A DNA stretch of 64,000 nt from Verrucomicrobiota bacterium. Lineage in GTDB: Bacteria > Verrucomicrobiota > Verrucomicrobiia > Limisphaerales > J093. The position numbers were made by a program, and so were the translations under genes. The notes beneath the pieces were generated by a model, which saw only the letters and a program-made list of their open reading frames with translations, was not told where the DNA came from and did not search any database. This document shows positions 1,208 to 14,254 of the stretch, piece by piece (position 1 is the stretch's first letter; the number at the start of each line of letters is the position of its first letter). Location: the NCBI GenBank assembly GCA_022710935.1, contig JAKLFY010000005.1:78087-142086 (forward strand). Reading direction: 5' to 3'.

Positions 1208-4021
1208 TTACCAGCGGAGGCGGTAGAAGCGGCGGGAGTCGCTGGTGGCCGAATGGTCGAGCCAAACCAGAGGTTGGGTCTGGATGGTATTGGTGCCGAG
1301 AGGCAGCCAGGCAGCCAGGTTGTTCGAGATTTCGAGGACCTGGGATGAACCGAGCGGCGCGTCGATGGTCAGTTGCATGGTGCCGGCGGGGGAGAGGGCG
1401 GCGGCGGTGAACCTGGCTGGCGGCAGCACCTTGATCGCCGCGGCGGCCTGCGACGCCAATTGAACATGCCAGCCCGACCCCGAGGGCTCGAGCCGGACAC
1501 CGCTGAGCAGATCGATGGCCACCCTGCGAGGCGCAGCTCCGTCCGGATCCAGCGAGGTGCTGAACGTGGCCGTGCGGGTGGTCGCGCTGTTGTTGAACAA
1601 GGTGAAGTAGACGGCGCCGTCGGGAGCGGGGCCGAAGCGCTCGACGAGGATGTCCGCATTGTCGCAGGCGCCCCGGGTGACCGGTTGCCAGCCGGCCTCG
1701 GCGATCTGTTTGATGACGGGGAGGTAGCGCTTGAAGAGCGGGCGATCTCGGTTGTACCAGGCTGGGTTCTGCCAATAGGGGTTCTCCGCCGCATTATGGC
1801 TGAACATGGACGGGTACATGCCATAGAAGAGGCTGCGCTGAAAATAGCGTTCGACGCGGTTGGTGCCGAAACTGGCGTAGTCCGTATTCATCAGGAGAAG
1901 GTAGGGCTTCTTGCCGGACAGGGTGCGCCATAGGGACATTTGGCCATGCGAAGACGGCGCGTACTGGCCATTGGAAAGCCAGTCGGTTTCCGTGCCCATG
2001 ACATCGAGCCACGGGCAGAGGAAGCTGAAGCGGTAGGGGACACCGTTGGCGAAGCAGAGTTTGCCGAATTGATGGAGATCGTCGCTGATCCAGCGGGTGA
2101 ACTCGAAGACGGCCAGCCCTTTCCAGAGGGCCGGACGGGCGGTTATTGTGTCGAAGGTCAATGGGACCGTGCTGGACGCGAAGTGTTCGCGGCGAAAACT
2201 CAGGTCGGCTGTGACATATCCCTCGAGTGAGTCGAGGTATTCGCCATCGAGACTGCCGTTGGCGTTCGGACCGTAGAGCGATTCGCGGATGCTGGCGCTC
2301 CAGTGGACGGTGGCGGCGTTGGGGTTGGCGGGGAGAAGGGGGTTGGGGTTGAGGCTCCAGACGGCGCCGTTGGCCCACGGCTCGTTGCGAAAGAGAAGGG
2401 AAGGCTGACCGTTGATGTCGAACATCCCGGCGCTGCGCGAAACGATCGCCATGCGTTGCCGGGCGCCGGGGGCGCCCGCGGCGTAGGCGTCCCGAACCTC
2501 GAGCGCGGTGGCCACCGTGCGGGGAAGTGCCGGGTCCATCGACATCCACCAGGTCATGGGCTCGGTGTAGCGGAAACTCAGGATGCCGTTCGCGTCGTCA
2601 AAGGGGACGTTGTTGTTGCCTTCGTGATAGCGGAAGCCGAAATCCTGCCAGCCGCTGACTGTGCTCACGTCGGTGAAAGGCATCCAGATCCCCTGGTCTT
2701 TCGAACGCACGGTGAAGTATGCGGGAAACAGTAAGGTGTACTTCTCCCACGCGCCGCGGAATCCCCAGCGGGGATCGAATCGAAAGAGGACGAATCGAAA
2801 CTCCGCGCCGGAGGGGAACCGGGTGGTTTCGGGCACCAACCCGAGGTCGTAGGCGACGAACAGTTGTTTCGTGCCGGCATGGTAGGCAAGGCGGTACTGC
2901 GCCGGCTTCGCCATATCGACGGCGAGGGCGAGTCCGGACTGGTCATCGCTGACGCAGGCCAGGGGATAGACGGAATGGCGTCCATTGGCGCCGCAGTTCA
3001 CGCCGACGGTGTTGCTGAGTTCCTCGGGGGCGGCGACGGGTCTTTGCTCGCGGATATCGTGGCCCCAGCTCCAACCGGCAGCATCCAGGGGGAGGGCAAA
3101 GAGGAGCATGATGGCGCGATCGGTGCCGGTGGTATCCACCACGGTCCCTGAGACGGCCAGATGATCGGCGTTGGTGATGATCGTGGCGCGCAGGAGCAGG
3201 TTCAAATCGGGACAAGCGCCTTCGTCGAAGGAAAAGACGTCCGAGTTTGCGGCCATGTCGCGCGCGAGGAATCCGGATGGGGCGCTGCCGGTCAGGTTAC
3301 GCCCGCCCACGGACAAGCGAGCGACGCGTCCGCCGGTGAGCGTGAGATCGAGGCCGTCGCCTGTGGAATAGGCGGCTGGCTGTCCCGCGGGCGGGGCGGG
3401 GGTTCCGACGGTCATGGGGGTGCCCTGGAACAGAAAGGCCCCGGCGGGGGCGCTGATCTCGGCCACGGAGACGTCGTCGAACCAGACCTCGCCGGAATGG
3501 TTCCGGAAGAGGCAGTAGAGGGTGAGAGACCGGATCGGTTTCTCGGGGAGGATGACGAACTCGCGCGCTTCCCAGCCGTGCGTGCCGGCGCTGAAGTTGC
3601 CCGTTTGGCCCCACAGCGGACTGCCGTCCTGGTAGACGATGTCGACGTAGAGGGAGTAGTTGCTGTCGGCGCTTCCGCTGACCTCTTCGGCGCGGCTCCA
3701 GCCGCGGACGGCGACCGGAACGCAGTTGGTGCGATTGAGGGTGAGCGTTTGGCTGGCGCCATACCAGCCGGTGGCATCCGAGGCCCGGCACGCCAGGGCC
3801 TGCGAGTTGGTGCGGCCTTCGCCGGGTGCAGCGCGCAGCCCCTGGGGGCCGGCGGACCAGGAGGTGAGCATGTTGGTCGTGCCCAGCTCGAAGCCGGGGT
3901 TCCGGAGGAGGTTCAAGCCTGCGCCTGAGGCTTGGACGACGCGCATGACCGGCGTGCCCGAGTGGGCGACGCCGAGAGTCAGAAACACCGCGGCGAGAGG
4001 AAGGACGAGACGACAACGCAT
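1208..4021 (-). CDS. Large secreted protein of unknown function, possible glycoside-hydrolase-like core
   Basis: 937 residues. An N-terminal signal peptide (MRCRLVLPLAAVFLTLGVAHS) is followed by a carbohydrate-binding-type beta-sandwich at about 38-190 (LLRNPGFELG start and VWFDDVSVAEI end, the usual framing of CBM4/9-like or DUF642-like domains). The middle, about 200-780, is rich in Trp/Tyr/Phe and has patches such as WMPFTDVSTVSGWQDFGF, DGEYLDSLEGYV and FLCPWLDVMG that look like the strands and acidic loops of a TIM-barrel glycoside hydrolase; I do not recognise the family. A beta-sandwich at about 780-870 and an ~50-residue tail ending RRFYRLRW close the protein, and a similar tail ends the preceding gene on the other strand. 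It lies 78 bases downstream of the radical SAM gene on the same strand, so co-transcription is possible, though a repeat end sits between them. Confidence 0.75.
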   Translation of the reverse strand: MRCRLVLPLAAVFLTLGVAHSGTPVMRVVQASGAGLNLLRNPGFELGTTNMLTSWSAGPQGLRAAPGEGRTNSQALACRASDATGWYGASQTLTLNRTNCVPVAVRGWSRAEEVSGSADSNYSLYVDIVYQDGSPLWGQTGNFSAGTHGWEAREFVILPEKPIRSLTLYCLFRNHSGEVWFDDVSVAEISAPAGAFLFQGTPMTVGTPAPPAGQPAAYSTGDGLDLTLTGGRVARLSVGGRNLTGSAPSGFLARDMAANSDVFSFDEGACPDLNLLLRATIITNADHLAVSGTVVDTTGTDRAIMLLFALPLDAAGWSWGHDIREQRPVAAPEELSNTVGVNCGANGRHSVYPLACVSDDQSGLALAVDMAKPAQYRLAYHAGTKQLFVAYDLGLVPETTRFPSGAEFRFVLFRFDPRWGFRGAWEKYTLLFPAYFTVRSKDQGIWMPFTDVSTVSGWQDFGFRYHEGNNNVPFDDANGILSFRYTEPMTWWMSMDPALPRTVATALEVRDAYAAGAPGARQRMAIVSRSAGMFDINGQPSLLFRNEPWANGAVWSLNPNPLLPANPNAATVHWSASIRESLYGPNANGSLDGEYLDSLEGYVTADLSFRREHFASSTVPLTFDTITARPALWKGLAVFEFTRWISDDLHQFGKLCFANGVPYRFSFLCPWLDVMGTETDWLSNGQYAPSSHGQMSLWRTLSGKKPYLLLMNTDYASFGTNRVERYFQRSLFYGMYPSMFSHNAAENPYWQNPAWYNRDRPLFKRYLPVIKQIAEAGWQPVTRGACDNADILVERFGPAPDGAVYFTLFNNSATTRTATFSTSLDPDGAAPRRVAIDLLSGVRLEPSGSGWHVQLASQAAAAIKVLPPARFTAAALSPAGTMQLTIDAPLGSSQVLEISNNLAAWLPLGTNTIQTQPLVWLDHSATSDSRRFYRLRW

Positions 4022-4062: not shown

Positions 4063-4102
4063 CCTTTGGTTGCGGCTTTGCCGCTAAGAAGTATGCGGGT
4101 TA
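4063..4102 (-). repeat. Half of a CTAACCCGCAT-type palindromic element; supplies the amrS stop codon
   Basis: Read on the minus strand, the amrS stop TAA is followed by CCCGCATAC and then a GCGGC-AAA-GCCGC hairpin. The order hairpin plus ATGCGGGTTA matches the right ends of the elements at 26.6 and 57.4 kb. No left terminal arm is evident here. Confidence 0.5.
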
Positions 4103-5404
4103 CGCCCAGACTCCCGCGATGGGGGTGTTGCAGAAGCGGCACTTGCCGCCTACCACGTCCAGCGCGGCGACGGCGAAGATGTCGCGCTGGATGAGGGGGC
4201 GCTTGCAGCTTGGACAGAAGGTGGTTTGGGCGTCGGCGAGGCCGGACACATTCCCGATGTAGACATAGCGCAGCCCCTCGATCCGCGCGGCGTCGCGGGC
4301 TCGGACGAGGAAATCGACCGGCGTCGGGGCGAGGTGGGTGAGCTTGTGCTGGGGATGGAAGCGGGAGAAGTGGAGGGGCTGATCCACACCCAGATGCGCG
4401 ACGAGCCACCCGCACATGCGCCGGATCATGTCGAGATCGTCGGTGTAGGTCGGGACGACGAGGTTGATGACCTCGACCCAGACGCCCAGGCTCTTGAGCG
4501 CGGTCAGGGTGCGCAGGATGGGATCGAGGCGTCCGGAGTTGAGCTTGCGGTAGATTTCGTCGCTGAAGCCCTTGAGGTCCACATGCATCGCGTCGATGTA
4601 CTGGGCCAGGTCGCGCAGCGGGCGCTCCTCGATCGAGCCGCAACTGACGAGCACGTTGCGCACCTTGTGGGCGCGCGCCAGCCGGCACGAGTCGTACGCG
4701 TATTCGTAGTAGGCAGTCGGCTCCGAGTAGGTATAGGAGATCGACGGGCAATCGAGATCCTGCGCCACCGCCACCAGGTCTTCGGGGAGGAGGCTCAGGC
4801 GCCGGATCTGGCCCAGGGTGAGCGCGGGCGGCACAGGCGGGCGCAGCCGGAACTCGGCCCCCTGCGGATCCTTGGTCTCCTCGGGTTTCTTCTGCGAGAT
4901 TTCCCAGTTCTGGCAGTTGAGGCAGCGAAACACGCAGCCGGATGTGGCGAGTGAAAACGAGCGGCTGCCCGGGAGGAAATGGAACAGCGGTTTCTTCTCG
5001 ATGGGATCGACGTGGAACGTGCACGGGTTGCCGTAGGCGAGCGTATAGAGCGTCCCGCCCCGGTTGACCTTGTTGCGGCAGTGGCTTCGATCGCCTGGTT
5101 CGAGCAGGCAGTTGTTGGGACAGATCTTGCACTGGACGTTGCGGTCCAGCTTGAGGTAGTGACGCGCTTCCCGGACCCAGCCCCGTTTCTGCCAGAGGTC
5201 CCACACTGCGTCCGAGGGGGCGTCGCCCTTGAAAACATCGGCGGGTTCGGCATCCTGCTTCCACCTCCGAAGAAACGAGAAGATCGAGTCCGCGCCGAAC
5301 AGTCCGGCGCACCCGAGGGCGCCGACTTCCAAGGCTCGCCGCCGGGTCAGCCTGGCGGGTGTCCGTGGGTGCGGACGGCGGGTCGTTTTCGCGTCCTGTT
5401 CCAT
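4100..5404 (-). CDS. amrS: AmmeMemoRadiSam system radical SAM enzyme with Tat-like N-terminus
   Basis: 434 residues, starting at the ATG at 5404; the open frame continues upstream but overlaps the previous gene and is not family-like. The N-terminal ~75 residues are an extension containing a twin-arginine-like stretch (LTRRRALEVGALGCAGLFGA). Next comes a Cys cluster (CKICPNNCLL...C), and at about residue 165 the radical SAM signature CVFRCLNCQNW (CxxxCxxC), which should bind a [4Fe-4S] cluster and S-adenosylmethionine. The downstream sequence (PTAYYEYAYD, NVLVSCGSIEERP, HVDLKGFSDEIY) matches the AmmeMemoRadiSam radical SAM family. A C-terminal zinc-ribbon-like pair (CPSCKRP, CRFCNTP) follows. 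The substrate of the family is unknown. It is the last gene of a minus-strand operon with the MEMO-AMMECR1 fusion, and its start lies inside the preceding small gene (58-base overlap), suggesting translational coupling. Confidence 0.9.
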   Translation of the reverse strand: MEQDAKTTRRPHPRTPARLTRRRALEVGALGCAGLFGADSIFSFLRRWKQDAEPADVFKGDAPSDAVWDLWQKRGWVREARHYLKLDRNVQCKICPNNCLLEPGDRSHCRNKVNRGGTLYTLAYGNPCTFHVDPIEKKPLFHFLPGSRSFSLATSGCVFRCLNCQNWEISQKKPEETKDPQGAEFRLRPPVPPALTLGQIRRLSLLPEDLVAVAQDLDCPSISYTYSEPTAYYEYAYDSCRLARAHKVRNVLVSCGSIEERPLRDLAQYIDAMHVDLKGFSDEIYRKLNSGRLDPILRTLTALKSLGVWVEVINLVVPTYTDDLDMIRRMCGWLVAHLGVDQPLHFSRFHPQHKLTHLAPTPVDFLVRARDAARIEGLRYVYIGNVSGLADAQTTFCPSCKRPLIQRDIFAVAALDVVGGKCRFCNTPIAGVWA

Positions 5405-5637
5405 CGCTGGAGGGCAAGATAGATCGCGGGGAGGGAGTGCACAAGGAGGAGCAGAAGCAGCGGGGCGTGAAGGAGCTTGTGCAGCGTCAGCGCGGCCTGC
5501 TGATCGACCAAGTGCCCGAATCCGTACCGCCCGCTGATGGCATACCCGGTCGCCACAAAGGCCAGGACCAGGGGCAGGAGGGGCCAACCGGTCCAGCGAA
5601 CCGCCTTCAAGAGGATTGGATCGAGCTTGTGCATCAT
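5347..5637 (-). CDS. Small two-helix membrane protein with conserved-looking histidines (96 aa)
   Basis: Starts with ATGATG at 5637; its first bases overlap the end of the spermidine-synthase-like gene, and its last 58 bases overlap the start of amrS. Two hydrophobic segments are predicted at about 17-34 (GWPLLPLVLAFVATGYAIS) and 58-77 (APLLLLLLVHSLPAIYLAL). Histidines 53, 57 and 67 surround the second segment (LHKLLH...VHS), a spacing reminiscent of b-type haem-binding helices in small cytochrome b/DUF4405-like proteins. Haem binding is a guess from pattern only. The tight packing between operon genes, in a different frame from both neighbours, and the clean two-helix topology support it as a real gene. 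No family recognised with certainty. Confidence 0.65.
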   Translation of the reverse strand: MMHKLDPILLKAVRWTGWPLLPLVLAFVATGYAISGRYGFGHLVDQQAALTLHKLLHAPLLLLLLVHSLPAIYLALQRWNRTRKRPAVRTHGHPPG

Positions 5638-7982
5638 GTCCTTTCGAGCCAGAGCAGTCGCAGGCCCGCCAGCGCATTGAGACTCGCCGCCAGACCGCAC
5701 GCCGCGGCCACGCCCAGGATGGGAATCAGCAGGGCGCCGGCGAGGATCGCTCCCACGCACGCGCCGACAAAATCCGCGGAGAAAATCCGCGAGGCCAAAG
5801 AGCCCGCATCCGCCCGTTCGACGCGGCATGCCAGCGGGAATTCGAGTCCGACCAGCACGGCCAAGCCCGCCGTGAGGAGGGCGACGAGGAACTGTCCGAA
5901 CCAGGGCGGCATTCCGGCGCGGTTCATTTGGCCAAGCGCGGTCAGGATCCAGGGCAACAGGAAACCGTAGGCGGCCAGCGCAAAGGCGACGGACGCCAGT
6001 CGGTGGCCGGCTGTCCGAGGGCCTTGGAGGGGGAACGGCTCGTCCCCCGTCATGACCGGGGACAGGCTGTTCCCGCGCCTCCAGTTCGTGGGGGCTGAGC
6101 AGGTTGGCGGCGAACAGGTGGCCCCTGAATCGCCGCTGCGCAGCCGTCCGCCAAGCCAGGCGCCCACGGCCAGACCGCCCATGAACACAGTGACGACCAG
6201 GCCGAGTTGCTGGTACAAAGACCCGTAGAGGACCTGCACGCCGAGCAGGAGGACGACCTCGAGAGCCGAGCCGGCGAAGCCCCCGCTGGACACTGCGAAA
6301 GCCGAGGCGCTCAACCGGGCCATGCAGGCCGCCAGACTCAGGCCGAGGACAATCGCCGCCGCGCCGAGCCAGACGTCGAATTGACTCAACCAGTGGCGGA
6401 GGTGCAGGAAGTAGAGGACCGGTCGGAAATCGGAGTTCACTGGCGCGGGCAGATCGGCGGCGCTTGCGACCGCCGCCAATCGTTCCGGGGTGAGCATGGC
6501 ATCGAGATACGAAGGCCTCATCCATTGGGCGGAGACGCCCGCCTGGCGCAGCCGCGCGGCGATGGACGGAGTGAGCGGACCGTCTGAAGCGAGGAACCAG
6601 ACCTTGGCGGACGGCAGGAGGAGGACCGTGCGGAAAGTCAGGCGCAGCGTGCGCGCCATCGAGGCGAGCATGCGGGCGAGTTCCGGGCTGACGTAGTTGT
6701 CGTACTGGCCGAGTCCGAACACCACGACGCCGTCCGGTTCGAGCACGCGCCTGAGTTCGGCGAAGAACTCGGCGGTGTAGTAGCGATTCAACTGCGCGGT
6801 TGCCGGGGCCGGCATGTCCACGATCGCGAGATCGTACGGTCCGTCCCCGCGCTGCACGTAGCGCCGACCGTCGGTGTTGACGACGCTCATGCGCCGGTCT
6901 GTCAGTCGCTCAGGCAGGAGGCGGCGTCCGGCCTCGAGGACGGCCGGGTCGAGCTCGACGCACGTCACGTTGGTCACGTCGTATTTGAGGATTTCGCCCG
7001 CGGTGCCGGAGAGCGCGCCCGACATGAGCAACACGTTGCGGGCCGAGGGGCGCTGGGCCATTGCGATGTGCGCGATTTCCTCCGCGCGCTCGATCTGGCG
7101 ACTCGAGAGCAGCGGCAATCCGTTTTCGATGAAGTTCAATTGGCCGGCGGATTCGGTCACCACCAGGCGTCCATAGGGCGACTGGGCGCGGAACACGACC
7201 CGATCGGGGCGGCATTGCCAGGCGGTGGTGCGGGCGTCGGGATCAAGCCATGCGACGCAGGCGACCAGAGAAGCCGCCAGCGCGAGGGGCAGGACAGCGG
7301 TTCGGTTTCCGGGCATCCGCCGAAGCGTCAGCGCTGCCAGGAGCAGGTTGGCTGTCGATGGCACCACGAGCAGGGCGATGTGATCCAGCCACCGGACCAG
7401 GGCGAATGTGAACAACGCGCCGCCAATCACACTGCCCAGGCAGTCGGCCAGGTACGCCGTCGACGCGCCTCGAGCCGCATCGGTTTCGTCGGACGCCCGG
7501 GAGGCCAGCGTGAGGAAGATGCCCGAGGCGAGGCAGTACGGGGCGAGGACAAGCAGGCTGCTCCAGACCGTCTGATCCAGGCCGAGCGTTGCGCCGCGGA
7601 GGAAGACGGCATTGCGTCCGAGCCGGACTGCGAGCACCTGGGCGAGGGGGATCAAGGCAATCCAGATCTGCAGGGCGGCGATCCACCGGAGACTCGCAGC
7701 CGATGACGCGCCTACGGGCGAATCCGCGGGGGTGTGCGGGTCAGAGCGGCAGGGCGCGGATGGCTGGGGTCCGCGGGGGCGGGTTGGTCGGGCGGGTGTG
7801 GCGATCCAGCGGCCGAGCCAGGCGCCGATGCCGGTGAGCAGGAGCCAGGCGCCCAGGAGGAGTCCCAGAATCAGCTCGTTGCCCTGGAACGTTCCGAGCA
7901 GTTCCCGCAGCAGGACCAGTTGTGTGACAGCGCTCGAAAACCCCAGCCCGGCCACGGCCCAGCGGACGGGCGCAGGGTTCAC
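5634..7982 (-). CDS. Polytopic membrane protein with internal spermidine-synthase-like domain
   Basis: 782 residues. About five to six hydrophobic helices fill residues 8-245, a class I methyltransferase-fold domain of spermidine synthase type occupies about 255-460 (SPYGRLVVTE, CVELDPAVLEAG, VVNTDGRRYV, YDLAIVDM, EFFAELRRVLEPDGVVV), and another block of about six helices follows (535-780). This is the layout of fused 'spermidine synthase / MFS-like' proteins. However, the GGGDGG loop reads SGALSG (321-326) and the DSSD loop reads DMPA (389-392), so two Asp residues used for aminopropyl transfer are absent and polyamine synthesis is doubtful. A Pro/Arg/Ser-rich insert (62-98) and a repeat-derived insert (633-653) separate helices. 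Its ATG overlaps the stop of the MEMO-AMMECR1 gene by four bases (ATGA), so the two are probably translationally coupled. Confidence 0.85.
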   Translation of the reverse strand: MNPAPVRWAVAGLGFSSAVTQLVLLRELLGTFQGNELILGLLLGAWLLLTGIGAWLGRWIATPARPTRPRGPQPSAPCRSDPHTPADSPVGASSAASLRWIAALQIWIALIPLAQVLAVRLGRNAVFLRGATLGLDQTVWSSLLVLAPYCLASGIFLTLASRASDETDAARGASTAYLADCLGSVIGGALFTFALVRWLDHIALLVVPSTANLLLAALTLRRMPGNRTAVLPLALAASLVACVAWLDPDARTTAWQCRPDRVVFRAQSPYGRLVVTESAGQLNFIENGLPLLSSRQIERAEEIAHIAMAQRPSARNVLLMSGALSGTAGEILKYDVTNVTCVELDPAVLEAGRRLLPERLTDRRMSVVNTDGRRYVQRGDGPYDLAIVDMPAPATAQLNRYYTAEFFAELRRVLEPDGVVVFGLGQYDNYVSPELARMLASMARTLRLTFRTVLLLPSAKVWFLASDGPLTPSIAARLRQAGVSAQWMRPSYLDAMLTPERLAAVASAADLPAPVNSDFRPVLYFLHLRHWLSQFDVWLGAAAIVLGLSLAACMARLSASAFAVSSGGFAGSALEVVLLLGVQVLYGSLYQQLGLVVTVFMGGLAVGAWLGGRLRSGDSGATCSPPTCSAPTNWRRGNSLSPVMTGDEPFPLQGPRTAGHRLASVAFALAAYGFLLPWILTALGQMNRAGMPPWFGQFLVALLTAGLAVLVGLEFPLACRVERADAGSLASRIFSADFVGACVGAILAGALLIPILGVAAACGLAASLNALAGLRLLWLERT
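6025..6084. repeat. In-frame GGAGGGG-type palindrome inside the spermidine-synthase-like gene
   Basis: A 60-base imperfect inverted repeat with arms GGAGGGGGAACGGCTCGTCC and GGACAGGCTGTTCCCGCGCC separated by a short centre. It is 60 bases (20 codons) long and encodes residues ~633-653 in a loop between two hydrophobic segments. The left arm resembles the intergenic repeat at 16977-17001 (GGAGGGGCGACGTCCTCGTC). Confidence 0.6.
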
Positions 7983-9586
7983 TGCCTCAACTCCGATTCC
8001 TTGAAGGCCTCGACGCGGTAGACGAGGACGCGCGTGCCGGGCTTTCTCCAGTCATCGGGTCCGCAGCCGGCCTTCTTGGCCAGGGCTGAGAGGAACTGGG
8101 CTTTGTCCGGGAGTTGGCGCCACACCTGGGGCAGGAACGTGGATGTGGCGGAGCCGATTTCGAGCACGACGCCGTCGCGGTGCGGTTGGAGTTTGGCGAG
8201 CAGATCCTCCGGGGACGTGAAGTTCAGCGGCTTTGGCTCGCTCAGGAGGCTGATCTCGAATTCGAGCGAGTCGAGTTCTCCCTCTCGCACCGGGGGGAAC
8301 CGGTAATCGCGCGTGGCTGCGCTGCGGGCGTTGCTGATGATCGAGGCATAGAGCGGCTCAGTGGCGCGGAGGTTGCCGATGCACCCCCGCAATGCGCCCT
8401 GTTGTGTCAACGTGACGAACGACCCTTTGGGTTCGCGCAGGCGTGGGGGGAGGTCCTCTGCGTTCACGGACGGCGAGCGACCGGTTGCGACGGCCTCGCG
8501 CACCGCCTGGCGCGCCAACTCGATCAGGCGTCGGCGTTCCTCGATCGAGCAGGGGTTCGATCCCTCGCCTTCGCCGGTGAAAGCGATCGAGGCGTACCCC
8601 ACCACGCCGCTCTTGTCACCCCCGGTATCACCGCTGTTGCGATAGTCCATGAGCTTGGCCTTCCATCCCTTTTGACGGGCCAGGTGCATCAGTGCCAGGA
8701 TCGGCGCCCGGCCGCATGCTTCCTGCTCGCGCATGCCATCGAGATCCAGGTCGCAAACCGCCTTCACACACCGTGTGTCGAGCGCTCTGGCTTGGTCATA
8801 GGGATGATAATGGCTCAGGTCGGAACTGGCTATCACCAAAGTGTGCTCATCCAGATGCCCGGCCAGACCGCGCGCAACCTCGGCAGGATCCACCTCGCCC
8901 AGGATCACCGTCACAAGATCGAAGTCCTTCAACGCTCTCTGGAGAAACGGCACCTGGACCTCGTCCGCATGTTCCCAGGTGTGCGGTGTCTCCTGGCCGC
9001 GCGCAGGCGATGACCGGCTCGATTGACCAGCCCAGGCAGGCCGTTGCAGAGGGCAGGGCCGTTCGGGGCCGAAGGGGGGCGTCCTGGCCAATCGGGCGGC
9101 CAATCCCGACACGCGGACGTCTCCGAGCGGCGTGCGGAACGCGCCTGCCCCCACCACGCTTGCTCCTCTGAACCGGGCGTAGTGGCTGGGCGCCAGCACA
9201 ATGACAGTCCGCCAGTCGTATCCGCCCAGAAGTCTGTAACCGTGGGCGGCAGTCGGCCCCGAGAATTGATAGCCCGCGTGCGGGCAGATGAGCGCCCTGA
9301 GGTCCGACACGCGTTCGGTTTGCGCGCGCGCAAGAAGGCGATCGACCGCCGACGACAGCGCCCCGGCTTCCGCGGGATAGAACAATCCGGCAACCGCAGG
9401 TTCGCGAATGCGGGCGGGCGCGAACGCGGCGTCCTGTGCCGCCTGGTTGGACGCATCGGACGGGGCGGAGAGTGCGCCGAGGAGATCCGGGCTGTGCCAG
9501 ACGCCGCTCAGCGAGCCGATGCATACCACGACTGCGAGGCGCCCTCGGGCGCGGGCCGGCGCCCGAACGTCGAGGAGAGGTTTCAT
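7979..9586 (-). CDS. amrB/amrA: Fused MEMO-family / AMMECR1-domain protein (AmmeMemoRadiSam proteins B and A)
   Basis: 535 residues. Residues ~62-340 are a MEMO-family domain with its expected site residues: H103 (CPHAGYQFSG), H135 (LAPSHYARF), D256/H259 (SSDLSHYHPYD) and C291 (EACGRAPI). Residues ~347-535 are an AMMECR1 domain (GSFVTLTQQGALRGCIGNLR, FEISLLSEPKPL). In most genomes these are two genes next to a radical SAM gene; here they are fused. The MEMO half has an extra Pro/Arg/Gln-rich stretch (169-204) before EHADEVQVPFL. The first ~60 residues precede the family core and include a hydrophobic run (RLAVVVCIGSLSGV) behind Arg residues, which could be a signal anchor. Eukaryotic relatives MEMO1 and AMMECR1 are known, but the bacterial biochemical role is not. 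First gene of the operon; the next start overlaps its stop. Confidence 0.92.
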   Translation of the reverse strand: MKPLLDVRAPARARGRLAVVVCIGSLSGVWHSPDLLGALSAPSDASNQAAQDAAFAPARIREPAVAGLFYPAEAGALSSAVDRLLARAQTERVSDLRALICPHAGYQFSGPTAAHGYRLLGGYDWRTVIVLAPSHYARFRGASVVGAGAFRTPLGDVRVSGLAARLARTPPFGPERPCPLQRPAWAGQSSRSSPARGQETPHTWEHADEVQVPFLQRALKDFDLVTVILGEVDPAEVARGLAGHLDEHTLVIASSDLSHYHPYDQARALDTRCVKAVCDLDLDGMREQEACGRAPILALMHLARQKGWKAKLMDYRNSGDTGGDKSGVVGYASIAFTGEGEGSNPCSIEERRRLIELARQAVREAVATGRSPSVNAEDLPPRLREPKGSFVTLTQQGALRGCIGNLRATEPLYASIISNARSAATRDYRFPPVREGELDSLEFEISLLSEPKPLNFTSPEDLLAKLQPHRDGVVLEIGSATSTFLPQVWRQLPDKAQFLSALAKKAGCGPDDWRKPGTRVLVYRVEAFKESELRQ

Positions 9587-9722: not shown

Positions 9723-9755
9723 AAAAAACCCCCTCCCGGCCGAGCCGGGAGGGGG
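9723..9755 (-). terminator. Rho-independent terminator of the porin gene
   Basis: Perfect 12-bp stem (CCCCCTCCCGGC at 9729-9740, GCCGGGAGGGGG at 9744-9755) with a 3-base loop, followed on the minus strand by six T residues (A run 9723-9728 on the plus strand). It begins 18 bases after the porin stop codon. Confidence 0.9.
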
Positions 9756-12136: not shown

Positions 12137-14254
12137 ATGTTTTACTCCAGATTGCCACATATTGGTGTTGCGCGATCCGCACTCGCGTGTGCCCCGCTTC
12201 TCGTCCTGTCGGCCCATGCCGCTGACTTGCGTCTGGTCGATTTCTCGATGGCCCAAAGCGGCGGGTTTCTGGCTCTGACCGATTCGCAGGTCACAAACAT
12301 CCAAAGCGGCTCAGGCTCCGCCTTGCGGGTTGCCACTGGCCACCGGGAATCGTGGCCGGGCGTGGCACTCAAGGCGCCTGATGGGCGATGGGATCTCACG
12401 GCGTTTGCCCAAGTCGTCGCCGCTGTGCGGAATCCTGGATCGAAGAGCGTGACGATCAACTGTCGGGTGGACAATCCTGGTGCCGACGGGACGAGCCATT
12501 GCATCACGCGCTCGGTGACCGTCGGGGCTGGGGCGACGAATGTTCTGCGGGTCGATCTGCGGCGGGCCAATGACAGCACGATGGACGGCAAGCTCTTCGG
12601 TCTGCGGGGTTACCCGGTGGCGCCCGGGGGGCAGGGGGCGATCGACCCGGCGAACATCACGCAGATCCTTGTCTTTGTGAACAAGCCCCAGACCGACCTG
12701 GTTTTCGAGGTGGGTGAGTTTCGCGCGACGGGCCGTTACACGCCGCCAACGGCTTGGGTCAGCGATGCCGATCCGTTCTTTCCGTTCATCGACGCACTCG
12801 GGCAGTACCGGCACAAGACCTGGCCCGGCAAGACGCCGGCTCCGGCGAGCCTGGCAACCCAGCGGGATGCCGAGGCGCGATCGCTGGCGAGGGCGCCAGG
12901 CATTCGGGGGTGGAACCGTTATGGCGGTTGGGCGGCGGGACCGGAGCTCGAGGCCACGGGGTTTTTTCGTGTCCAGAAGCATGGGGGCAAGTGGTGGCTT
13001 GTCGATCCGGAGGGCCGGCTTTTCTGGTCCCACGGAATCGATTGTGTGCGCATGCTCGATGCGACTCCGATCGACGAGCGGGCGGATTGGTTTGTCGATT
13101 TTCCCGGCGACCAGGCCGATTTTGCCGAGTTCATCACGTCGGCCTACGCGTTGAAGGGGCACTACGCCGGGCGTTCGCCCAAGTGTTTCTCTTTTGCCGG
13201 GGCGAACCTGAAACGCAAATACGGAGCCGAGTGGAGGGAGGTTTATCCCGGCATTGTGCATCAACGCCTGCGGGCCTGGGGCCTGAACACGATCGCCAAC
13301 TGGTCGGACGAAGGCATACGCCTGATGCGGCGGACGCCCTACACCGACACGATCGGGTCGTCGCGCGCGCGCCGGATCGAGGGGAGCGAGGGGTACTGGG
13401 GCAAATTCCCGGATGTGTTTGATCCCGCGTTCCGGGAGGGTTTACGGCGGCAGATGGCGTCGAAGGCGGGCAAGAGCGCGGGCGATCCCTGGTGCATCGG
13501 GTATTTTTCGGACAACGAGATGGGTTGGGGCGACGACGTTTCTCTGGCAGCGGGGGCATTGGCGTCTCCGGCGGATCAACCGGCCAAGCTTGCGCTGCTC
13601 GACGACCTGCGGGTTAAGTATGGCGAGATCGGGAAGCTCAATGCCGCGTGGGGCAGTTCGCATGAGTCGTGGGACGCCCTGGCCGCGAGCCCGGCCAAGG
13701 CTGACCGGCAGAAGGCGGGCGGGGATTTGCGTGCTTTCTACACGAAGGCCGCGGAGCGGTACTTCAGCACCATCCGCGAGGTGATCAAGGAAGTCGCGCC
13801 GAACCAGCTCTATTTGGGCTGCCGGTTTGCGTGGGGGAACGACCGCGCGGCGGCCGCGGCGGCGAAGTTCTGCGACGTGGTCAGCTACAATCTCTACCAG
13901 CGCAGCGTGGCGGATTTCCGGTTCGCCGGGGATGCCGACGTGCCGCTGATCATTGGCGAGTTTCACTTTGGCGCCCTGGATCGCGGGCTCTTTCACACCG
14001 GCCTGGTGCCTGTCGACAACCAGGCCGAGCGCGCGCGGGCCTATCAGGACTACGTGCGGGGGGCGCTGCGGCATCCGCAATTTGTGGGCTGTCATTGGTT
14101 CCAGTACCAGGACGAGCCGACGATCGGGCGCGTGCTGGACGAGGAGAACTACCAGATCGGCTTTGTGGACATTGCGGACACGCCGTACGCCGAGACCGTC
14201 AGCGCGAGCCGGACCGTGGCCGAGACGATGTATGGCCTGCGGCTCGGGGATTGA
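12137..14254 (+). CDS. Secreted beta-agarase-like glycoside hydrolase (GH50/GH42-like TIM barrel)
   Basis: 705 residues with a signal peptide (residues ~1-28, ending SAHAAD). Residues ~30-200 form a beta-sandwich accessory domain like that found N-terminal in GH50 agarases; from ~250 a TIM barrel follows with the typical entry GGKWWLVDPEGRLFWSHGID, then IGYFSDNEMGWGDD (Glu as candidate acid/base) and PLIIGEFHFGALDRG (Glu as candidate nucleophile), and a final GCHWFQYQDEP strand. Such enzymes hydrolyse beta-1,4 linkages in agarose or related galactans in the periplasm or outside the cell; exact specificity is not readable, and an uncharacterised beta-galactosidase-like role is the alternative. 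Stands alone between a metallopeptidase and a RidA-like gene; a TAACGTTA dyad lies just upstream. Confidence 0.8.
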   Translation: MFYSRLPHIGVARSALACAPLLVLSAHAADLRLVDFSMAQSGGFLALTDSQVTNIQSGSGSALRVATGHRESWPGVALKAPDGRWDLTAFAQVVAAVRNPGSKSVTINCRVDNPGADGTSHCITRSVTVGAGATNVLRVDLRRANDSTMDGKLFGLRGYPVAPGGQGAIDPANITQILVFVNKPQTDLVFEVGEFRATGRYTPPTAWVSDADPFFPFIDALGQYRHKTWPGKTPAPASLATQRDAEARSLARAPGIRGWNRYGGWAAGPELEATGFFRVQKHGGKWWLVDPEGRLFWSHGIDCVRMLDATPIDERADWFVDFPGDQADFAEFITSAYALKGHYAGRSPKCFSFAGANLKRKYGAEWREVYPGIVHQRLRAWGLNTIANWSDEGIRLMRRTPYTDTIGSSRARRIEGSEGYWGKFPDVFDPAFREGLRRQMASKAGKSAGDPWCIGYFSDNEMGWGDDVSLAAGALASPADQPAKLALLDDLRVKYGEIGKLNAAWGSSHESWDALAASPAKADRQKAGGDLRAFYTKAAERYFSTIREVIKEVAPNQLYLGCRFAWGNDRAAAAAAKFCDVVSYNLYQRSVADFRFAGDADVPLIIGEFHFGALDRGLFHTGLVPVDNQAERARAYQDYVRGALRHPQFVGCHWFQYQDEPTIGRVLDEENYQIGFVDIADTPYAETVSASRTVAETMYGLRLGD

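Follow-up and report, generated by a model that had tools for sequence, protein, structure and literature searches.

A four-gene operon in the genome of a Verrucomicrobiota bacterium probably encodes an extracytoplasmic variant of the AmmeMemoRadiSam system, located either at the cell surface or in the periplasm, and we put the probability of this reading at about 0.68. The operon lies in a 64,000-nucleotide stretch of DNA (assembly GCA_022710935.1, contig JAKLFY010000005.1, positions 78,087 to 142,086; hereafter the window), where four minus-strand open reading frames at 4100–9586 overlap by 4, 4 and 58 bases, an arrangement that an earlier note on this DNA had described and that the coordinates confirm. 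AmmeMemoRadiSam is a widespread trio of enzymes and remains unexplained. As far as we know, radical S-adenosylmethionine (SAM) enzymes are regarded as cytoplasmic because they need both SAM and a strong reductant, and we know of none that operates outside the cell membrane. The computed support for the reading consists of export signals, the conservation of the module, a spermidine synthase-like (SpdSyn-like) domain predicted on the outside, and the intact cluster motif of the radical SAM enzyme.

Export signals on the catalytic partners

The operon encodes a fusion of MEMO and AMMECR1 (7979–9586, minus strand; 535 amino acids, ATG start) and a radical SAM enzyme resembling the pyruvate formate-lyase (PFL) activase (4100–5404, minus strand; 434 amino acids, ATG start). 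As the earlier note had proposed, these represent the AmmeMemoRadiSam trio, with all three domains above their curated cut-offs (TIGR04335, TIGR04336 and TIGR04337) in adjacent genes. The fusion scores 223.8 bits against the MEMO model TIGR04336 (cut-off 26) and 200.4 against the AMMECR1 model TIGR04335 (cut-off 99), with Pfam matches to Memo at 1e-44 and AMMECR1 at 1e-46, while the radical SAM enzyme scores 314.7 bits against TIGR04337 (cut-off 220). The sites expected of the radical SAM and AMMECR1 domains are intact: the CxxxCxxC motif of the radical SAM enzyme (C157, C161 and C164) is invariant in 46 sequences, and the AMMECR1 motif LRGCI is retained in 48 proteins. Human MEMO1 has the metal ligands H49, H81 and C244, of which the histidines bind iron or copper (PMC11081632); H103 and H135 of the fusion align with H49 and H81, and the third ligand is likely to be C291, which is invariant but falls outside the stretch aligned to MEMO1.

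The only solved relatives that sequence comparison found for the radical SAM enzyme are PFL activating enzymes (3c8f; 1e-13), with which it shares the radical SAM core. It differs from them in scoring just 42 against the PFL activase model TIGR02493 (cut-off 231.75), in having four extra cysteines at the N-terminus and four at the C-terminus, in lacking a glycyl radical enzyme in its operon, and in carrying a signal that resembles those of the twin-arginine translocation (Tat) pathway.

This signal, LTRRRALEVGALGCAGLFG (residues 19–37), consists of a twin-arginine motif followed by a hydrophobic stretch. In a fixed test of motif and hydrophobicity, 67 of 79 homologues from several phyla pass, compared with 0/26 canonical TIGR04337 enzymes of the same order. 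The fusion likewise begins with a signal or anchor segment (approximately residues 14–42), and a hydrophobic export-type N-terminus is present in 38/45 MEMO-AMMECR1 (or AMMECR1) partners, several of them with a lipobox, but in none of the 16 MEMO proteins encoded beside canonical radical SAM enzymes. These signals on the catalytic partners are a new point: the earlier note had described the two middle genes as encoding membrane proteins, which they do, but the outer two carry export or anchor segments as well. Absence of a signal is no part of the curated family definition; it is nevertheless a feature of the canonical, presumably cytoplasmic branch, and one that the window's proteins do not share.

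Phylogeny separates the two types. The exported enzymes form one branch with a support of 100 (containing one unextended archaeal row, L166), apart from a canonical copy that the genome of the window also holds. That copy belongs to a second pair of genes (G000:C193:13001-14847; L041 6894-8848) encoding a radical SAM enzyme (TIGR04337, 267 bits) and then MEMO; neither protein carries an export signal, and the pair lacks the module's membrane genes. The earlier note had considered the operon informative about partners of human MEMO1 and AMMECR1; this link is weaker than it implied, since the clade is separate and apparently extracytoplasmic and the genome also holds the canonical signal-less pair.

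The distribution of the Tat machinery points in the same direction as the signals. TatC is present in all 12 genomes tested, including those of archaea of 0.7 to 1.7 Mb. Among 147 genomes of one DPANN archaeal phylum, TatC is found in four and the N-extended radical SAM enzyme in four, with three common to both, so that TatC accompanies the exported enzyme in 3/4 genomes versus 1/143 otherwise (Fisher p=3.1e-5, not corrected for relatedness); canonical radical SAM enzymes occur in approximately 54 of the 147, nearly all without TatC. In five archaeal genomes, tatA and tatC adjoin the module itself (L121 13665-14553, shared as L121/L184; L124 12629-13473; L133 6959-7869; L147 8330-9278; L183 11078-12027), and at L133 a distance of 3 bases separates the end of the tatC frame from that of the radical SAM gene. 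Taking together the signals of the enzyme and its partner, the co-occurrence of TatC and the adjacency of tatA-tatC, we infer export of the radical SAM enzyme by Tat as the best reading.

Alternatively, an ordinary cytoplasmic AmmeMemoRadiSam system might simply be held at the cytoplasmic side of the membrane, its N-termini serving as anchors and the arginine pair being incidental. Known radical SAM enzymes draw on cytoplasmic SAM and reductants, and some of the hydrophobic regions are short or not clearly cleavable, as this alternative would have it. We nonetheless consider it unlikely: positively charged regions ahead of the hydrophobic segment predict an N-in/C-out orientation, canonical relatives have no such N-terminal segment, and lipoboxes on the partner, together with the proximity and co-occurrence of Tat genes described above, also speak against it.

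Two membrane partners

Export of the catalytic proteins would place them out of reach of cytoplasmic SAM, and the second protein of the operon (5634–7982, minus strand; 782 amino acids, GTG start) is a plausible candidate for its supply. It matches Spermine_synth (PF01564, 5e-21) and exceeds the cut-off of NF037959, a family of fused major facilitator superfamily (MFS)/SpdSyn proteins. An AlphaFold2 model built with 51 homologues (pLDDT 89.6, pTM 0.89) has 14 transmembrane helices, arranged as seven helices, a SpeE-like domain (approximately residues 247–537) between helices 7 and 8, and seven further helices. The membrane part adopts the two-half MFS fold, matching SV2A (Z 27.2 over 339 residues), SLC15A3 (Z 22.5 over 385) and SUC1 (Z 22.0 over 380), while the SpeE-like domain matches a Thermus thermophilus aminopropyltransferase with a Z of 27 and has 1uir and 3anx as relatives in the PDB. 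Across the 51 homologues the density of lysine and arginine is at least 0.097 in every loop assigned to the inside and at most 0.089 in every loop assigned to the outside; by the positive-inside rule, the SpdSyn-like domain is thus predicted to lie on the outer face.

The domain shares its fold with NF037959 proteins and aminopropyltransferases, as well as the acids that hold the nucleoside (E343 and D371). It departs from the aminopropyltransferases in its predicted location and in its remaining active-site residues: the acid of the GGG[DE]G motif (position 324) is replaced by a residue other than aspartate or glutamate in 51/51 homologues, the catalytic aspartate of DxxDP (position 392) is present in 29/51 and is alanine in the window's protein, and N399 and R400 are invariant in the SpdSyn-like family. 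Since the nucleoside-binding acids are retained and the substrate-binding acids are lost, the domain probably binds an adenosyl compound, and a role as an ordinary polyamine synthase was rejected. The protein may instead supply SAM to the outside, or remove or take up an adenosyl product.

There is, however, a competing account of this one component, which does not conflict with an exported module: the protein may act not as a SAM transporter but as an aminopropyl- or aminocarboxypropyltransferase on an amine of the envelope, with the radical SAM enzyme and MEMO-AMMECR1 acting on the same product. The close structural match to an aminopropyltransferase, the retained nucleoside acids and the invariant N399-R400 pair, which suggests a specific substrate pocket, all speak for it, whereas the missing GGG[DE]G acid and the inconstant catalytic aspartate speak against it, and the MFS fold with a full two-half transmembrane body is more suggestive of transport. 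We regard a transferase as a serious contender at somewhat under even odds.

The third protein (5347–5637, minus strand; 96 amino acids, ATG start) is a small protein with two transmembrane helices. It has no match in Pfam or NCBIfam, and a PDB sequence search with the family returned a chance match only. The earlier note had called it His-rich; it does span the membrane twice, but the richness is not conserved, and invariance is limited to two of its seven histidines, H53 (33/34) and H67 (34/34). These lie 14 residues apart on the second helix, and the same spacing is found in the haem-binding helices of cytochrome b and the gamma subunit of formate dehydrogenase. The H-x13-H spacing on the second helix and a TG motif that ends the first helix also occur, in register, in DUF4405 and Ni_hydr_CYTB b-type cytochromes of the same clade, although the small protein differs from these in having two helices only. 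Modules in which a Tat-dependent iron–sulfur protein is paired with a haem protein of the membrane to transfer electrons are known (PMC10924467); their proteins are tail-anchored electron carriers, and that paper describes no radical SAM enzyme exported by Tat. It is a reasonable guess that the small protein delivers electrons to the exported cluster; lineages in which it is missing must then use another electron route.

Genomic context and distribution

The genomes used for comparison comprise 58 whole genomes of relatives, in which a close SpdSyn-like homologue was defined by E < 1e-50. The SpdSyn-like homologue, the small protein and a two-piece N-extended radical SAM enzyme occur in one and the same set of nine genomes (G000, G001, G004, G009, G010, G011, G023, G047 and G052); the small protein is confined to genomes that bear the module, and the fusion is found in these nine and in G025 only. 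Module distribution among the 58 is therefore close to all-or-none, with linkage not visible in every one of the nine, where some contigs are broken. The module genomes are scattered, such that in one genus of four genomes (g2) only G010 has the set. In G025 the fusion stands alone (G025:C664:10503-11930; L185 6492-8066), with no SpdSyn-like, small or radical SAM gene nearby.

A wider scan of species genomes with the radical SAM enzyme yielded 80 best named loci, many of them on short contigs. Within 7 kb of the enzyme, the SpdSyn-like gene is present at 60/80 loci, AMMECR1 at 47/80, MEMO at 39/80 and the small gene at 36/80. The radical SAM, fusion and SpdSyn-like genes occur together in Verrucomicrobiota, Planctomycetota, Acidobacteriota, Bacteroidota, 'Deltaproteobacteria' and DPANN archaea; gene order is conserved across phyla, and recurrence of the set and its order in unrelated phyla is far beyond chance. 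In contrast, the small gene is found at 20/26 verrucomicrobial, 8/8 planctomycete and 4/8 archaeal loci but at only 2/18 loci of 'Deltaproteobacteria' and 0/16 of Bacteroidota, and it was rejected as a universal part. From these counts, the core comprises the radical SAM enzyme, the SpdSyn-like protein and AMMECR1, which is as a rule fused to MEMO. The extended module proposed in the earlier note is thus real and conserved, but conservation across genera extends to three of its four proteins; the fourth, being absent from many homologous loci, is an accessory limited to some lineages.

Could the genes be neighbours through shared regulation only, as in a stress or envelope operon, without forming a single machine? 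Partial sets do exist, with the radical SAM enzyme beside a zinc-ribbon-like protein at three loci, the fusion alone in G025, and AMMECR1 without MEMO at Desulfobacteraceae-like loci. Yet all protein types occur in the same 9/58 genomes, and shared regulation alone would not require the same partners to recur in another order and orientation, as they do at the archaeal loci L133 and L147. We judge this explanation quite improbable. A membrane-associated assembly is likely, as the earlier note had suggested in proposing a single complex, although the overlapping gene ends on which it relied do not by themselves show one.

The partial loci vary in composition. At L093, L096 and L097 (radical SAM gene at approximately 9.8–11.3 kb), an exported-type radical SAM enzyme without a SpdSyn-like or small gene nearby adjoins the zinc-ribbon-like protein (L093 9523-9834), and in the L093 genome MEMO proteins occur in long frames elsewhere. 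At the Desulfobacteraceae-like loci (L131, L139, L141, L143, L144, L151 and L152), a signal-bearing AMMECR1 is followed by the SpdSyn-like gene and the radical SAM gene, with MEMO located elsewhere in the genomes checked. The woesearchaeal module L124 has a thioredoxin-like gene (7201-7524) directly upstream of the SpdSyn-like gene. Clustering of open reading frames within 8.5 kb revealed no further conserved neighbours save archaeal tatC, the other families being generic or spurious.

In the window itself, a strong terminator-like hairpin (9729–9755, minus strand; 12-pair stem with 11 G-C pairs, followed by a T-run) closes an upstream gene for a BBP2/OmpL-like porin (PF07642; 9774-11411, minus strand), so that the four genes form an operon with a start of its own at 9586. 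The radical SAM gene is followed, after 78 bases and likewise on the minus strand, by a gene (1208-4021) for a 937-amino-acid protein without a Pfam match, and a 705-amino-acid protein, also without any Pfam match, is encoded on the plus strand at 12137-14254.

A proposed scheme for radical chemistry outside the membrane

Compared with the known AmmeMemoRadiSam system, the module is distinguished by its export-type signals, by a clade apart from the canonical copy of the same genome, and by a recurrent MFS/SpdSyn-like partner, often with the di-histidine two-helix protein. The inferred parts of its mechanism, namely Tat export itself, complex formation, SAM supply, haem and substrate, could be combined as follows. 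Tat would send the folded radical SAM enzyme across the membrane, its signal probably keeping it anchored, while the general secretory (Sec) pathway would export metal-binding MEMO plus AMMECR1 in the form of a lipoprotein or an anchored protein. The MFS-fold partner would hold its adenosyl-binding domain on the outer face and serve the chemistry on that side by delivering SAM or by taking up an adenosyl product, a role suggested by the retention of nucleoside-binding acids and the loss of those that bind and activate the amine. Where present, the small protein may form an oligomer that binds b haem and conducts electrons across the membrane to the [4Fe-4S] cluster. A complex of the radical SAM enzyme, MEMO and AMMECR1 would then carry out a radical-dependent modification, the substrate of which should be an envelope molecule or an exported protein.

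Several points weigh against this scheme. We know of no source of SAM or of low-potential electrons outside the membrane. The signal calls come from a home-made test of motif and hydropathy rather than SignalP; 12/79 homologues fail it, several as near-misses (for example KR.FLK), and the homologue L119 shows either a frameshift or loss of the signal. The draft archaeal genome G082 has the exported enzyme but no match to TatC. Subsets of the module occur at some loci, and the SpdSyn-like gene is missing nearby at L093, L096, L097, L118 and L123. Around the modules of Bacteroidota and most deltaproteobacteria, searches with hidden Markov models found no gene like that of the small protein, nor did these loci yield a consistent substitute when searched for other membrane reading frames with two histidines. 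Finally, the profile match of the small family to DUF4405 by hhalign is weak, at 29% probability with both histidines in register, where ten control two-helix pieces reach at most 6.6%.

Neither exported radical SAM enzymes nor this module turned up in the literature that we searched, which did not include a 2019 study of the contexts of Memo genes (cited in PMC7159879). More tentatively, this may be the first radical SAM system outside the cytoplasm, equipped with its own SAM-supplying membrane protein and its own transmembrane haem wire, and some tiny DPANN archaea may keep a whole Tat system mainly for this one enzyme. If true, a conserved exported radical SAM enzyme in bacteria and archaea would depend on SAM being supplied and on electrons being carried across the membrane; the module holds a plausible candidate for each of these roles. 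Hosts of the module include the cultured strains Mangrovibacterium marinum DSM 28823 and Gaoshiqia sediminis A06. The old question of the function of MEMO and AMMECR1 would also become more testable, as the substrate in this branch has to be accessible from the outer side.

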